DNA of 30,534 nucleotides from a virus. The notes beneath the pieces are model-generated. The model made no database searches, had not been told where the DNA came from, and was given only the letters and a program-made list of their open reading frames with translations. The translations under genes were made by a program, and so were the position numbers. Location of the stretch: the IMG/VR virus record IMGVR_UViG_3300021197_001302, positions 1 through 30,534 of that record; one strand, 5' to 3'. Numbering within the stretch: position 1 is the stretch's first letter; every line of letters starts with the position of its first letter. Below, in pieces: positions 4,203 through 25,776 of the stretch.

Positions 4203-6479
4203 ATGGCACATAGTCATATTACAATTTCAGGTCTTGATGACCAATTCGTTTCAGTAATTAATGCTGATATTAATTATTACATCAACTCGACAACAGGAAG
4301 TGATGCGGTAGGTATTGCTGGTAGTTCGGATGCACCATTCAGAACACTGGGTAGAGCATTTGAAGTATTACGAGACAAGAAAATTGCAAAAACTGCAACA
4401 GTAACAATTAACATTGCTGATGTTGTAGATGTGGTTACAGCATATAATGAAAGCGAAATTGTAGTTGACCATCCCGATGGGGAGAGAATTAATGTCGTCG
4501 GTCAAACTCCAATTTCACTTACTGCAAGAAACTATAATTATTACCAAACCGCACCAAGTGTTTCTATGGGTGGTGCAAATGCCGCAATTGGTGGGTACAT
4601 ATTAGAAATTGGTGTGGACTCAACTGCAAACATTCAAACTGGTGACTTCGCTGTAATCAGAGAACAAAACTACACACCATCAGGCATTGTTCATACTACA
4701 GTCGCAGGAGAAACGGGTAACGGTCCTACTGCGTTTGAAACTGACTTTGGAGGTTCCGGTGACAACTACATGGCTACCGGAGAAAATGGTGTTAGTGGTG
4801 CAACTGCTCAGGGAGCATCCGTTTCTTTACGAAAACTTCTCGCAGTCGGCGCACACGAAATTCTTGCTACAGGTGGTTCTTCAACATTCCCGCACCTTGT
4901 AGTTCATATTAGACACAACAACCATATGTTAACAAGTGGATTTACACAAGCAGTTTCGTGTAACGAAGCGTTTGTTACACCACAGGGAATTCAATACTCA
5001 ACATCATCACCAGCGACACCCGGCACTCCAATATCCAACTATGCGGGTCACTCGAAGAAAGCATCCAATACATTTGTGACTGCATCTTCCGCACCCGGAG
5101 GTTTCACAGGTTCACTTCCATTCCTCGGTGGAAATGGAATGACTGCGTGTGGTAACATTTATGAAAAACTAATGACTACTGCCGCTGCCCAGCGACATAC
5201 GAATATCGGAACAGTACAGGTCTACAGAACAAGACTTAACTTTGATAATTCAAACGGCATCAATGTTAAAAATGGCGGTAAACTAGGAAAACTTTCAAAT
5301 GTCGTTCTTTGTGGTAGAGGTCACAGATTAGACGGCGGGACATACGAATTTACAGATGGTGTGACCGGAAACGGCATCTCTGTTTCTGACAATGCAATGT
5401 GTGTTCTTGAAAATGTTTCAATTTGTGGTTTCCAGAATGGACTGTATGTTGACCAATCGATGGTATATGGAACTGGTGTAGTATCTTCCGCAAACTATTA
5501 CGGACTATATTCAGAAAACCAAGGTTCAATTTCAGCAGACTATTGTATGTTCACTGGTAACTCATACGGTGTATATGCAAAAGCAAGTAACATTGATTCT
5601 AACTACAACCTTTTCAGTGCAAACTGGCAAGACGGTTTCAATATCAAAGACACCTCAAAGGCAAAATTAAACCGCTCAATCTCAGCATTCAATGGTGGAT
5701 ATGGATATTCTGTAAAGGATAATTCAAATCTTGACATGATGGGAAGCGCCACTGTTTATCAAGCAAAAACCGGAACTAATACCACCGCAACCGATGGTAC
5801 TACATCAGATTTCAATGATGCGGCTGGTGTGCTAGGAACAGAATCAACTAGATTCCTTTCTCGCTTTGGTAAGTCCAGAAGAGATGGTTGTATCTCTTTC
5901 CGAAATGCAGACGCAGGAATCTACGTTGCAAACAACTCTGGTGTACACGCAAACTCCAACAGAATTTCTTTCAATAGAAACGGTGGAGTAAAAATGTATA
6001 ATGGAGGATTCTTGAATTCTCACTTCGGAAACTACTTCGAGAATGGTGCGACATTTAACACTGGAGTGGGTGGAGGAGTATTTAACGGAATCCACGCTAA
6101 CCAAAACTGCAACATTGACCTGAGAGATGGTGGAGTTATTCACAACACCCAAGGTGTTGTCTTAGAGAAAAATAGTTCTGCAAACATAGTAGACTCAACC
6201 ATCACAAAGAACACAGCAGTCCATCTTGTTATTCAAGAAAACAGTTCTGCTCATGTGACTGGGGGTACTTTTGCCACCGCTGGTTTAGTAGCAGGAGTGT
6301 CGATGGGTGGAGCAGTCATGAACATGGATTATCATTCTATGGCTAGATTCCAAGGAACAACTTCTGGAATTGGTGGCGGTACAATTGGATTTGCTTCTAA
6401 CTGGTTCATCGATACTTATACAGAAGGACAAACTGGTGCCGTTGTCTTTGCCGATGGTTCTAACGCTTATGACGATTAA
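4203..6479 (+). CDS. Probable parallel beta-helix tail fibre/spike protein
   Basis: 758 aa, starting at ATG 4203 after GGAGATTAAGGA. Residues ~26-55 carry 'YYINSTTGSDAVG', 'SSDAPFRTLGRAFEVL', the usual lead-in of phage beta-helix proteins (a Thr/Gly/Ser-Asp run followed by PFRTL..A). Residues ~330-720 are rich in Asn, Gly and aromatic residues with short imperfect repeats such as 'NSYGVYAKASNIDSNYNLFS' and 'AGIYVANNSGVHANSNRISF', the pattern of a pectate-lyase-like right-handed helix. It lacks the QLEAG adhesin signature of its two upstream neighbours. Such proteins act as fibres, spikes or polysaccharide depolymerases at the tail. I cannot identify catalytic acids, so enzymatic activity is not claimed. 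It has its own late promoter box. Confidence 0.65.
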   Translation: MAHSHITISGLDDQFVSVINADINYYINSTTGSDAVGIAGSSDAPFRTLGRAFEVLRDKKIAKTATVTINIADVVDVVTAYNESEIVVDHPDGERINVVGQTPISLTARNYNYYQTAPSVSMGGANAAIGGYILEIGVDSTANIQTGDFAVIREQNYTPSGIVHTTVAGETGNGPTAFETDFGGSGDNYMATGENGVSGATAQGASVSLRKLLAVGAHEILATGGSSTFPHLVVHIRHNNHMLTSGFTQAVSCNEAFVTPQGIQYSTSSPATPGTPISNYAGHSKKASNTFVTASSAPGGFTGSLPFLGGNGMTACGNIYEKLMTTAAAQRHTNIGTVQVYRTRLNFDNSNGINVKNGGKLGKLSNVVLCGRGHRLDGGTYEFTDGVTGNGISVSDNAMCVLENVSICGFQNGLYVDQSMVYGTGVVSSANYYGLYSENQGSISADYCMFTGNSYGVYAKASNIDSNYNLFSANWQDGFNIKDTSKAKLNRSISAFNGGYGYSVKDNSNLDMMGSATVYQAKTGTNTTATDGTTSDFNDAAGVLGTESTRFLSRFGKSRRDGCISFRNADAGIYVANNSGVHANSNRISFNRNGGVKMYNGGFLNSHFGNYFENGATFNTGVGGGVFNGIHANQNCNIDLRDGGVIHNTQGVVLEKNSSANIVDSTITKNTAVHLVIQENSSAHVTGGTFATAGLVAGVSMGGAVMNMDYHSMARFQGTTSGIGGGTIGFASNWFIDTYTEGQTGAVVFADGSNAYDD

Positions 6480-19395: not shown

Positions 19396-20859
19396 ATGTC
19401 AGACAATTTACTGACCGAACAACTTCAGAAGAAGTGGCAACCAGTTCTTGAGCATCCTGAGATGCCTGAAATTAAGGACGAGTATCGCAAAGCAACAACT
19501 GCGGTTCTCCTTGAAAATCAGGAACAGGCGCTCAACGAAGCACACGCCAACGCAGTTGGTGGTGGTATGTCACCCCATATCGGCGGAGAAGGCAACATTG
19601 CCGGATTCGACCCGATTCTCATCTCGCTCGTCCGTCGAGCAATGCCTAACCTAATCGCTTACGATATCTGCGGTGTCCAGCCAATGACTGGTCCTACCGG
19701 ACTTATCTTTGCGATGCGTGCTAAGTTTGCAAACAACGCAGGTACTGGTCTAGGTGGAGCCTCAACTCACGAAGCATTCTACAGCGAGCCAGGTAACTCT
19801 GGTGGTGGTTCAGGTGACCACCTTGCCGCTTCGACTAACCAAGTTGTACGCGGTGCAACACAAGGTACTTACCTCACAGATGACCCACTGGGTCTTGACA
19901 CCACCAGCGGCGAAGGTGCCAACTACCTTGGTCTTTCCGGTGGTTATCAGGTAGGTTCTGGTCACAGCACTGCTGTTGCTGAAGGTCTTATCCCACAGAA
20001 GATGGGATTCAGTATCGAGCGTGTTGCTGTTGAAGCACACTCCCGTGCATTGCAAGCAGAGTACACTACTGAACTCGCACAAGACCTCAAGGCTGTTCAC
20101 GGTCTTGACGCTGAAGCAGAACTCGCTAACATTCTTAGCACTGAGATTCTTGCTGAAATCAACCGCGAAGTTATTCGTAACATCAACATCACTGCTGTTC
20201 TTGGTGCATCGCAAGGTGACCTGGCAGTAGCAACCGCTGGTGGTACTGTTGACGGTCGTTCTGCAAGCGCCCCCGCCCCCTTCAATCGTGGTGTCTATGA
20301 CCTTATGCACGACTCCGATGGTCGTTGGAGTGCTGAACGCTTCCGTGGACTTCAGTTCCAGATTGAGCGTGAATGCAACGAAATCGCCAAGCAGACTCGT
20401 AGAGGTAAGGGTAACATCGTCATCTGTTCCTCAGATGTCGCTTCTGCTCTCTCCATGAGTGGTATTCTTGACCACGCACCTGCATTCGGTAACCTCGAAG
20501 TAGATGACACTGGTAACACCTTCGTTGGTGTTCTCAACGGTCGTATCAAGGTCTATGTAGACCCATACGCCGGTGCCAACTACGTCACCGTTGGTTACCG
20601 TGGTTCATCGCAGTATGACGCTGGTGTGTTCTACTGCCCATATGTACCACTACAGATGGCAAGAGCAGTTGATAGCACTACCTATCAGCCCAAGATTGCT
20701 TTCAAGACTCGTTACGGTCTTGTTAACAACCCATTCGCTAAGGGTGCTAATACCCCCGGATTCACTAAGGGTGAAACACCACTCGAAGTTCGTGCGAATG
20801 AGTACTACAGAATCTTCCGAGTTGATAACCTACACGGTATGAACACAGGTGACGTTTGA
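19396..20859 (+). CDS. gp23: Major capsid protein gp23 (precursor)
   Basis: 487 aa (T4 gp23 is 521). The ATG at 19396 follows AAAAGGAGA. Diagnostic segments are 'VRRAMPNLIAYDICGVQPMT', 'GPTGLIFAMRAKF', 'GFSIERVAVEAHSRALQAEY', 'LDAEAELANILSTEILAEIN' and 'YYRIFRVDNLHGM'. The N-terminal propeptide carries 'ALNEAHA'; L46-N47-E48 fits the gp21 (L/I)-x-E cleavage rule, giving a propeptide of ~48 residues against 65 in T4. Arg codons CGT/CGC and C-ending codons are much more frequent than in neighbouring genes, as expected for the most abundant virion protein. No gp24-like vertex paralogue is in the window. Confidence 0.97.
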   Translation: MSDNLLTEQLQKKWQPVLEHPEMPEIKDEYRKATTAVLLENQEQALNEAHANAVGGGMSPHIGGEGNIAGFDPILISLVRRAMPNLIAYDICGVQPMTGPTGLIFAMRAKFANNAGTGLGGASTHEAFYSEPGNSGGGSGDHLAASTNQVVRGATQGTYLTDDPLGLDTTSGEGANYLGLSGGYQVGSGHSTAVAEGLIPQKMGFSIERVAVEAHSRALQAEYTTELAQDLKAVHGLDAEAELANILSTEILAEINREVIRNINITAVLGASQGDLAVATAGGTVDGRSASAPAPFNRGVYDLMHDSDGRWSAERFRGLQFQIERECNEIAKQTRRGKGNIVICSSDVASALSMSGILDHAPAFGNLEVDDTGNTFVGVLNGRIKVYVDPYAGANYVTVGYRGSSQYDAGVFYCPYVPLQMARAVDSTTYQPKIAFKTRYGLVNNPFAKGANTPGFTKGETPLEVRANEYYRIFRVDNLHGMNTGDV

Positions 20860-20883
20860 TTCTGATTGAAAAAGATTAAATTA

Positions 20884-20900
20884 GTCGGACTTAACCCGAC
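20884..20900 (+). other. Small hairpin preceding the gp23 terminator
   Basis: GTCGG (20884-20888) pairs with CCGAC (20896-20900) around a 7-base loop, 24 bases after the gp23 stop and directly before the terminator stem. It may stabilise the message 3' end. Confidence 0.4.
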
Positions 20901-20901
20901 G

Positions 20902-20940
20902 AGCCCCGAAGTTTCCGAAAGGACTTCGGGGTTCTTTTTT
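20902..20940 (+). terminator. Intrinsic terminator after gp23
   Basis: CCCCGAAGT (20904-20912) pairs with ACTTCGGGG (20923-20931). TCC/GGA pairing continues above a small bulge and ends in a GAAA tetraloop. The T-tract TTCTTTTTT (20932-20940) follows. This is a canonical rho-independent terminator; it closes the capsid transcription unit. Confidence 0.9.
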
Positions 20941-20947
20941 ATACATA
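20940..20947 (+). promoter_or_regulatory. Candidate late promoter variant TATACATA after the gp23 terminator
   Basis: 7/8 match to TATAAATA, starting at the last T of the terminator T-tract and 33 bases before the ATG at 20981. It is followed by CTATAG, as in the gp19 upstream region. It would restart transcription for the following small genes. Confidence 0.45.
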
Positions 20948-20980
20948 CTATAGAGAGATATTCTTTTAGGAGAGATAAAC

Positions 20981-21202
20981 ATGGTGGCATCAGGCGGAAA
21001 CTTTTCATTTGGAACTAGTAGTGGTGGTGGAGGAGGTAATCCAACACCAGCAACAGGTGGTAATTCTGGAAGACAAAACTCTACCACAGCCGCACCAGTG
21101 ACCAACAACAAAATGAGTAAAGCACCCAGTACTGGATTTCAAAAGAAAAAGAAAAAAGGCGCTGATGGTGGAACACCCAAAGCACCCCAAACAGGAGCAT
21201 AA
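20981..21202 (+). CDS. Small Gly/Ser/Thr- and Lys-rich disordered protein
   Basis: 73 aa. The ATG at 20981 follows TTAGGAGAG, an excellent ribosome binding site. The first half is low complexity ('FGTSSGGGGGNPTPATGG'). The second half has a five-lysine run 'GFQKKKKKGADGG' and the C-terminus 'TPKAPQTGA'. It is strongly basic with no hydrophobic core, so probably disordered. It sits between gp23 and a tail-tube-fold gene, in the late region. The downstream neighbour (21206-21379) shares the K-run-Gly-...-QTG ending, so the two look like a duplicated pair. No function is recognised; DNA or capsid interaction is conceivable from charge only. Confidence 0.6.
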   Translation: MVASGGNFSFGTSSGGGGGNPTPATGGNSGRQNSTTAAPVTNNKMSKAPSTGFQKKKKKGADGGTPKAPQTGA

Positions 21203-21205
21203 CAA

Positions 21206-21379
21206 ATGGCAATGCAAAAGTCATCAAAAATATCAACTAGAAATGTAGTAAAACCCAAAGGTGGTTCTGGTAGCAACAACGCACCAACAACCGGCGGAAG
21301 AAGTTCTTCTGGGGAAACGATTAAAAAGAAAAAGGGTAAAGGTGGCGGTGGTATGAACCGAGCCGCACAAACTGGATAA
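21206..21379 (+). CDS. 57-aa Lys/Gly-rich protein, partner of the preceding gene
   Basis: The ATG at 21206 comes 3 bases after the previous stop, with AGGAG at 21193-21197 (8-base spacing). The stop is TAA at 21377-21379, and the next gene starts 6 bases later. The product begins 'MAMQKSSKISTRNVVKPKGG', has Ser/Gly/Thr low complexity, then 'ETIKKKKGKGGGGMNRAAQTG'. It shares with its neighbour a lysine run followed by glycines and a C-terminal A(P)QTG. The strong Shine-Dalgarno and tight packing argue for a real gene despite its size. No family is recognised. Confidence 0.55.
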   Translation: MAMQKSSKISTRNVVKPKGGSGSNNAPTTGGRSSSGETIKKKKGKGGGGMNRAAQTG

Positions 21380-21385
21380 TAAATC

Positions 21386-21946
21386 ATGTCCAAGAAAAAA
21401 GACGTTAATATTCAAAGTTACTTGCCGGGAGGTACTGGAGATTTTCTCACAGATGCTCCCGACAAGATTAACTTTGTACAACAACCTGCATTTAAGTTTA
21501 TTCTTAACAGGACACCGAAACTATCTTTCATGTGTCAGAGAGTAAACTTACCCGGTATTGGTGTTGAAGAATTAACCTTTGCAACACAAAGAGGCTTTCA
21601 AGGAATTCCTATTGCGGGTGCGGCTCAATTAGATGATTTTGAAATATCATTTGCAGTTGAGGAAGACCTTACCAACTGGCGAGAAATCTATGATTGGATT
21701 CATAGTATCACAACAGTGAAGGATACCAAATCATACGAAACGATAAACAACCACTATTCTCAAGCGGAACTCATAATCTTGAATAGTGCAATGAAGCCAA
21801 ACTACAGAGTTTCGTTTGAAAATATTTTCCCAAAAACACTATCCGGTATTGAATTTGATGCCACTGTTGGTACAATAGAGACTACGCAGGCAACTGCAAC
21901 ATTCGCCTATACATCATATGAGGTGGAAAAACTCGAATCCCCGTGA
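21386..21946 (+). CDS. Second tail-tube-fold protein (gp3-type terminator or gp19 paralogue)
   Basis: 186 aa. The core follows the tube pattern seen in gp19 here: 'AFKFILNRTPKLSFMCQRVN', 'LPGIGVEELTFATQRGFQGI', 'DDFEISFAVEEDLTNWREI', 'YDWIHSI', and C-terminal beta strands 'TQATATFAYTSYEVEKL'. In cyanophage-type T4-like genomes the gene between gp23 and uvsY is, as I recall, the tail completion protein gp3 (T4 gp3 is 176 aa), which fits length and position. A baseplate tube initiator of the gp54 kind is the alternative. The tube fold is well supported; the exact T4 equivalent is not. No strong Shine-Dalgarno is visible, so translation may couple to the small gene 6 bases upstream. Confidence 0.65.
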   Translation: MSKKKDVNIQSYLPGGTGDFLTDAPDKINFVQQPAFKFILNRTPKLSFMCQRVNLPGIGVEELTFATQRGFQGIPIAGAAQLDDFEISFAVEEDLTNWREIYDWIHSITTVKDTKSYETINNHYSQAELIILNSAMKPNYRVSFENIFPKTLSGIEFDATVGTIETTQATATFAYTSYEVEKLESP

Positions 21947-24406: not shown

Positions 24407-25084
24407 ATGAGTGGAAACAGATACAAATCATTTAGACTTCGCAACGGTGAGGAGATAGTAGGTGAAGTTGTTGGAGTTACTGGAACTTCAACAAAACTCT
24501 TTCGTCCTGTTCTTATAAAAACTGTAATTATGCCTGATATGGCGACAGGAACAGTCAAGGAGTTTGTTTTATTCAAAGAGTGGCTTCCTTCAATAGAGAA
24601 TGAATTTACTTTACACAAAGATTATATAATGACTCAATATACTCCGAGTGCTAAAGTAATGAAATCGTACTTGGAATACCTCGAAAGACTCGACGTTGCA
24701 CAAGACATAGCAAAAGAACTAATGAATGACCCAGATGCGTTGGAAGATTTCTTACGAACAAAAATCAATGAAGAACTCGGAGAAGATAGTTTGGAAGAAG
24801 AACCAAGCAATCCATCTACCCCTTCAGATGATGTACAAATGAATTTTGTTTTAAACCCCAGAATGTTTATGGAGTTTCTTCATCATGGAATCTTGAGCCT
24901 AAATGATGACGAAGATGGTGAGAACGGAATCGAAATTGACCCCGATGCGTTTATGGAAACGTATGAAGAAATGAAACAGCACGAAGAAGAGTCAAAAGAA
25001 AACCCCCCGCGTCGTGCAAAGAAGAAGCGAGGGGAGTGGGATTATGGAAACCAGTTTGATAACTGGGACCCTAAACCAGATTGA
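24407..25084 (+). CDS. LSm-like domain acidic protein, function unknown
   Basis: 225 aa. The ATG at 24407 follows TAGGAGA. Residues ~8-45, 'SFRLRNGEEIVGEVVGVTGT' then 'KLFRPVLIKTVI', match the Sm1-type pattern (hydrophobic-RNG-x-hydrophobic-x-G-x-hydrophobic). 'FKEWLPSIENEFTLHKDYIM' and a helix follow. I recall similar genes in marine myoviruses, always uncharacterised. The middle and C-terminus are very acidic, ending in a basic patch 'NPPRRAKKKRGEWDYGNQFD'. RNA binding is an inference from the LSm-like segment only. It lies between uvsW and gp55. Confidence 0.6.
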   Translation: MSGNRYKSFRLRNGEEIVGEVVGVTGTSTKLFRPVLIKTVIMPDMATGTVKEFVLFKEWLPSIENEFTLHKDYIMTQYTPSAKVMKSYLEYLERLDVAQDIAKELMNDPDALEDFLRTKINEELGEDSLEEEPSNPSTPSDDVQMNFVLNPRMFMEFLHHGILSLNDDEDGENGIEIDPDAFMETYEEMKQHEEESKENPPRRAKKKRGEWDYGNQFDNWDPKPD

Positions 25085-25178: not shown

Positions 25179-25206
25179 TTGATTTTTTTTAAATGTAGTG
25201 TATAGT
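25179..25206 (+). promoter_or_regulatory. Sigma70-like promoter upstream of gp55
   Basis: TTGATT (25179-25184), a 16-base spacer, then TATAGT (25201-25206), inside the longest gap of the window (25085-25230). It matches the bacterial -35/-10 consensus at 4/6 and 5/6. The rest of the gap shows no ORF or convincing hairpin. It would let host polymerase transcribe gp55 and the following recombination genes before late transcription starts. Confidence 0.5.
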
Positions 25207-25216
25207 ATATACAAAG

Positions 25217-25225
25217 AAGGAGGTG
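25217..25225 (+). promoter_or_regulatory. Ribosome binding site fixing the gp55 start
   Basis: AAGGAGGTG, a near-perfect Shine-Dalgarno, 5 bases before GTG at 25231. It excludes the upstream in-frame GTG at 25198, which lies on the promoter, and the ATG at 25229, which is followed at once by TGA. Confidence 0.75.
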
Positions 25226-25230
25226 TCCAT

Positions 25231-25776
25231 GTGAGCAAGAAAAAAACACCAGCAAACCACTATGTGGATAACAGTAAATTTTTTGAAGAGATGTGTCTTT
25301 GGAAAGAAAAGGTTGTTGAAGCAAATGAAACAGGTGACCCTCGACCGCCTGTGAATGAATACATCGGAGAGTGTTTCATGAAAATTGCAGAACACCTTTC
25401 CCATAAGCCCAACTTTATCAATTATGATTATAGAGAAGAAATGGTCGGAGATGGCATAGAAAACTGCCTAATGTACGCACACAATTTCGACCCAGAAAAG
25501 TCAAAGAATCCATTTTCATATTTCACCCAGATGATATACTATGCGTTCTTGAGAAGAATCCAAAAAGAAAAGAAGCAGATGTATGTCAAGTATAAACTGG
25601 CAGAACAATCTGACCTCTATAGAAACTTTCCAAGATGGGAAGACCAAAGTGATAACTTAGCAAAGCAGTTTAATTTAACCGAAACTGACCTCGATAACTT
25701 CACTCCAAAGTCCAAAAAGAAAAAAAAGAAAGAGGATGGGAGTGAGGGTGCAACCCTTGATGATGTAATGGAATGA
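25231..25776 (+). CDS. gp55: Late transcription sigma factor gp55
   Basis: 181 aa from GTG 25231 (T4 gp55 is 185). Motifs are 'KTPANHYVDNSKFFEEM', 'PPVNEYIGECFMKIAEHLSH', 'DYREEMVGDGIENCLMYAHN' and 'NPFSYFTQMIYYAFLRRIQK', the sigma region 2-like block of gp55. The factor directs host RNA polymerase to TATAAATA late promoters and contacts the sliding clamp through its C-terminal tail (established). Here the tail is a lysine run (~162-167) then acidic 'ATLDDVME', a weak match to a clamp-binding tail. An in-frame A-AAA-AAG heptamer occurs at 25722-25728. gp33, the co-activator, is not in the window. Confidence 0.92.
   Translation: MSKKKTPANHYVDNSKFFEEMCLWKEKVVEANETGDPRPPVNEYIGECFMKIAEHLSHKPNFINYDYREEMVGDGIENCLMYAHNFDPEKSKNPFSYFTQMIYYAFLRRIQKEKKQMYVKYKLAEQSDLYRNFPRWEDQSDNLAKQFNLTETDLDNFTPKSKKKKKKEDGSEGATLDDVME

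Follow-up and report, generated by a model that had tools for sequence, protein, structure and literature searches.

Between the genes of the major capsid protein gp23 and the tail protein gp3, a virus record of 30,534 bases from a T4-like marine phage lineage (referred to in full length as the window) carries two short ORFs, ORF1 and ORF2, which probably encode genuine, basic, late-expressed small proteins. Both appear to be lineage-specific, fast-changing accessory genes, and a possible, still tentative reading is that their products act as accessory disordered polycations of the virion or of its assembly. The features behind this view, namely the coding frame, the orthology of ORF2, the slot behind a late promoter, the basic composition and the fast evolution, are taken from sequence, and the disorder is predicted.

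Two small basic genes behind a candidate late promoter

The locus has the order gp22, gp23, terminator, late promoter, ORF1, ORF2, gp3, uvsY, dCMP deaminase and helicase, the last of which is read as UvsW from its position beyond the dCMP deaminase. The gp23 gene (positions 19396-20859, plus strand) was assigned by its match to phrog_138 (E = 8e-146), with the closest isolate matches, at 53-54%, in Methylophilales, Pelagibacter, Stenotrophomonas and Synechococcus phages. The gp3 gene (21386-21946, plus strand), encoding a tail-tube terminator or tail completion protein of the tail-tube family, matches phrog_45 (E = 7e-34) and, in tblastn, an annotated cyanophage gp3. An initial annotation of this DNA had placed the small genes between capsid and tail genes, which is correct; of the gp23-uvsY interval that it also named, the gp23 side stands, whereas on the far side gp3 comes next and uvsY lies one gene beyond. 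A literature search on the gp23-gp3 interval found nothing.

ORF1 (73 aa; 20981-21202, plus strand) is a basic protein rich in Gly, Ser, Thr and Lys, and ORF2 (57 aa; 21206-21379, plus strand) is basic and Lys/Gly-rich. Most of what had been described for them was borne out: ORFs of 73 and 57 codons are present, each has a strong Shine-Dalgarno sequence (duplex energies of -7.3 kcal/mol for ORF1 and -6.6 kcal/mol for ORF2), lysine runs of five (ORF1) and four (ORF2) residues occur together with Gly/Ser/Thr-rich stretches, and the genes are tightly packed downstream of a terminator and of a candidate late promoter, with stop-to-start gaps of 3 nt between ORF1 and ORF2 and 6 nt between ORF2 and gp3. 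The net charges are +8 and +11 and the pI values 10.8 and 11.8, respectively. The proteins are very probably disordered, as had been suggested, with only 7 hydrophobic residues in each and an AlphaFold2 model of ORF1 that is devoid of secondary structure (pTM 0.12, from an alignment of only three rows).

Upstream of the ORFs, a small hairpin, GTCGG-ACTTAAC-CCGAC (GTCGGACTTARCCCGAC; 20884-20900, plus strand), is predicted by folding, and it is followed by an intrinsic terminator (20901-20934, plus strand) with a 14-pair stem and a T-run, the region scoring z = -5.05; an Rfam search of the terminator region gave no match. The candidate T4-type late promoter TATACATA (20940-20947, plus strand) has one mismatch to the late consensus of T4, TATAAATA, which itself occurs six times on the plus strand of the window and never on the minus strand, mostly 30-75 nt before gene starts. 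With a TATAAATA-like promoter (one mismatch) upstream and the late sigma factor gp55 encoded (25198-25776; phrog_234, E = 4e-62), the window has what is expected of T4-type late genes, and a T4-type late promoter, NATAAATA, is known from marine cyanophages (PMC2984593).

Neither ORF matched any family in Pfam, NCBIfam or PDB, PHROGs returned a chance-level match only, and phage records yielded none for ORF1 by tblastn; in line with the initial annotation, there is no assigned T4 counterpart. Direct IMG/VR searches with ORF1 and ORF2 yielded pattern matches but no confirmed relatives, and screening the first 115 loci mechanically for Gly/Ser/Thr-rich ORFs with a lysine run recovered only the window and one further contig, L003. 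Short length, low complexity and the lack of database matches are what would be expected if the ORFs were spurious products of an intergenic region of low complexity. Nevertheless, we consider this explanation extremely unlikely, as the in-frame codon log-odds per codon of +0.545 (ORF1) and +0.456 (ORF2) exceed the median of known genes while every other frame looks non-coding (at most 0.03), the corresponding averages being +0.36 over known coding pieces in the window and -0.63 over non-coding frames (99th percentile 0.00). In addition, L003 holds an orthologue in which the tight packing is kept.

An orthologue of ORF2 in the closest relative

IMG/VR scans with gp3 identified L003 as the one close relative (gp3 87% identical) along with a sister clade at 51-52% identity, and an alignment of gp3 against bacterial genome contigs found nothing. 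The L003 interval contains a single ORF of 58 aa (L003 positions 4818-4994) with the same architecture, located 6 nt ahead of gp3. It is 44% identical to ORF2 and scores 77 against 38 +/- 7 in run-preserving shuffles (p <= 0.0002), and the two proteins have in common the lysine run, a glycine run and the ending M-N-[KR]-A-[PA]-x-T. In contrast, it is not clearly related to ORF1 (p = 0.31), which has no counterpart in the L003 slot. The orthologue thus argues that the gene is real and that neither the pair nor the QTG ending is conserved: the pair of genes with lysine run and QTG that related genomes had been expected to share was traced only as far as this near relative, and there as one gene.

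ORF1 and ORF2 resemble each other at p = 0.002 in residue shuffles and p = 0.018 in shuffles that leave runs intact. The duplication proposed in the initial annotation is therefore no more than plausible, its weak support being this likeness, with one copy in L003. The same annotation had suggested dN/dS as a check, and the ratio, estimated as pN/pS between ORF2 and its L003 orthologue, is 0.51 (95% range 0.31-0.75) and hence below 1, although the protein-based alignment favours a low ratio. This is close to the values of gp22 (0.48) and of a 96-aa gene before gp21 (0.50) and well above those of gp3 (0.16) and uvsY (0.11), indicating that ORF2 evolves like a prohead-core gene and unlike gp3. 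In this one comparison of two genomes, ORF2 looks fast-evolving yet subject to purifying selection.

The stretch upstream of the small genes is more conserved than the genes themselves. From the gp23 stop to the promoter (20860-20953, comprising hairpin, terminator and late promoter), 94 of 94 bases are identical in L003, compared with a DNA identity of 81-87% for gp23, gp3 and uvsY. The identity of this leader may reflect a functional RNA or a recent exchange.

A probable ribosome-binding site behind the QTG ending

Both ORFs had been said to end in QTG, which is true of ORF2, whereas ORF1 ends in QTGA and the L003 protein in APKTE. The conserved QTG motif that the initial annotation had anticipated, and whose absence it took to speak against its proposal, is thus not found, the L003 orthologue ending in KTE. 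The DNA at the junctions offers a simpler account. ORF1 runs into ORF2 as CAA ACA GGA GCA TAA CAA ATG, ORF2 into gp3 as CAA ACT GGA TAA TAAATC ATG, and the L003 ORF into gp3 as AAG ACG GAA TAA TAAATA ATG; in all three, a GGA core precedes the start of the following gene at a distance suited to a Shine-Dalgarno sequence, so that what is kept is the GGA triplet near the start codon and not the amino acid. In ORF1, the Q-T-G codons (CAA ACA GGA) plus one base (21188-21197, plus strand) contain AGGAG, the Shine-Dalgarno sequence of ORF2. Since codons for QTG (CAR ACN GGA) carry the GGA core of the next gene's Shine-Dalgarno sequence, the common QTG is best read mainly as an overlap with this ribosome-binding site rather than as a functional peptide signal.

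A role of QTG as a signal in protein sorting or binding was also considered. In the more than 2,000 ORFs of the loci examined, it recurs at the end of credible genes only in the sister-clade gp3 proteins (NQTG). Their genes end in CAG ACA GGA TAA a few bases ahead of the uvsY start, and a signal was rejected as the main cause on the basis of the junction DNA. Within the window, a Shine-Dalgarno core falls in the last five codons at 11 of 16 tight junctions versus 3 of 9 wide ones, a trend that is not significant. As a caution, where phage genes are tightly packed, C-terminal residues that they have in common can stem from a translated ribosome-binding site.

The slot ahead of gp3 and possible roles of the ORFs

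A late-promoter-like motif was present in 124 of 136 distinct gp23-gp3 intervals, mostly 10-30 nt before gp3, some of these by chance given the loose motif set. The promoter TATACATACTATAG of the window and of L003, by contrast, precedes the small ORFs rather than gp3 directly. The slot is occupied in four other contigs by proteins of 78-83 aa resembling phrog_12296, whose family label is tail fiber (L004:1676-1915; L142:1530-1766; L099:3549-3788; L013:4670-4921). Like ORF1 and ORF2, these are encoded by a small gene between late promoter and gp3 with a weak gp3 ribosome site behind it; unlike them, they are beta-rich in a poor, low-confidence model (pLDDT 50) and not of basic low complexity, and no sequence relation to the ORFs was seen. 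Elsewhere the gp23-gp3 interval holds genes for 354 and 196 aa (P-SSM3) or, in other relatives, varied unrelated ORFs. A 158-aa Gly/Met/Trp-rich protein (L036:5082-5558), without matches in a family search, is encoded in this interval ahead of the terminator and promoter, not behind them.

That relatives carry insertions in this interval would suit cargo acting outside the virion, such as late peptides for host takeover or anti-defence that borrow the gp3 promoter, as would the strong divergence and lineage restriction of the ORFs. However, a late promoter is atypical of takeover genes, which in T4 are unusual behind such promoters, and the proteins have few hydrophobic residues and no matches of weight in Pfam, PHROGs, NCBIfam or PDB; we regard cargo of this kind as rather unlikely.

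The ORFs might alternatively be leader cistrons whose peptides matter little and which set gp3 translation by coupling, as the weak gp3 site lies 6 nt past the ORF2 stop. The gp3 Shine-Dalgarno energy is -3.1 in the window and -3.5 in L003, compared with about -9.2 in the directly promoted sister clade, and it lies between -2.6 and -3.6 wherever a small gene separates promoter and gp3 (window, L003, L004, L013, L099 and L142), with the proviso that start codons were picked by Shine-Dalgarno strength and that these six cases amount to about four independent ones. The short stop-to-start gaps agree with coupling as well. On the other hand, coupling requires neither a conserved basic composition, nor the lysine run, a terminal motif or a pN/pS below 1, other tight junctions in the window join ordinary genes, and a weak site (-3.5 or weaker) is also found in 27% of gp3 genes directly behind the promoter. 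A purely regulatory role is accordingly judged improbable, although a weak gp3 site behind a small gene fits translational coupling as well as the production of a six-copy protein downstream of one that is more abundant; the copy number of T4 gp3 is six (PMC3004832).

In five sister contigs (L195, L196, L197, L200 and L201) the small ORF is absent and gp3 directly follows the promoter, upstream of which lie the same hairpin, also found after gp23 in L003, a similar terminator and TATACATACT. Their gp3 proteins carry, up to and including a YLP motif, a variable, mildly basic (+2 to +4) and disordered-looking N-terminal stretch of 33-49 aa, compared with 14-16 aa in the window and L003 (14 residues in the window). 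One could therefore imagine the ORFs as a free-standing counterpart of this hypervariable gp3 arm that acts at the tail-tube terminator. If so, the arm would be fused in one lineage and replaced by one or two separate polycationic peptides in the other, behind the same promoter, which would give the T4-type neck a modular, disordered component. Nevertheless, the arm is part of gp3, no alignable sequence has been demonstrated between arms and ORFs, the charge of the arm is far below that of the ORFs (+8 to +12), and the common QTG ending is accounted for by the Shine-Dalgarno overlap, all of which makes such an origin very unlikely.

We thus return to the accessory disordered polycation as our tentative preference. 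The ORFs would have been inserted between gp3 and its usual late promoter and, in the lineage of the window, probably duplicated. Owing to the strong ribosome sites ahead of gp3, the small proteins would probably be made in excess of gp3 and be multicopy. As short disordered polycations, they may bind a negatively charged partner, either packaged DNA or an acidic surface on the prohead core, the capsid or the neck; association with the virion and binding to DNA or capsid would match both the charge of the proteins and their genomic setting, with its late promoter and neighbouring genes. We surmise that, much like the small basic internal proteins of T4 but outside that family, they could be dispensable components of the virion or of its assembly.

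The T4 small internal proteins are abundant, dispensable and poorly conserved, and related phages have different basic proteins in their place (PMC9026906). ORF1 and ORF2 share with IPI, IPII and IPIII, which are tied to head assembly (PMC9026906), the small size, basic character and poor conservation. They differ in being far smaller (57-73 aa) and of extreme low complexity, and in lying ahead of gp3. Moreover, an [LI]xE site for the prohead protease (gp21-type) is found in neither ORF nor in the L003 protein, while gp22 and gp23 contain several; the T4 route into the head is therefore not evident, and the ORFs are not classed with IPI-IPIII. They would represent an example of an orphan disordered late protein, otherwise an ordinary kind of accessory gene, and suggest how, in T4-like phages, an essential tail gene can become separated from its promoter by the insertion of small late genes for unstructured proteins.

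It also counts against the preferred reading that lysine runs are not peculiar to the small proteins, being seen as well in linkers of gp55 and of the product of 24407-25084. In gp55 of the window, a KKKKKK run is followed by the C-terminal tail ATLDDVME.
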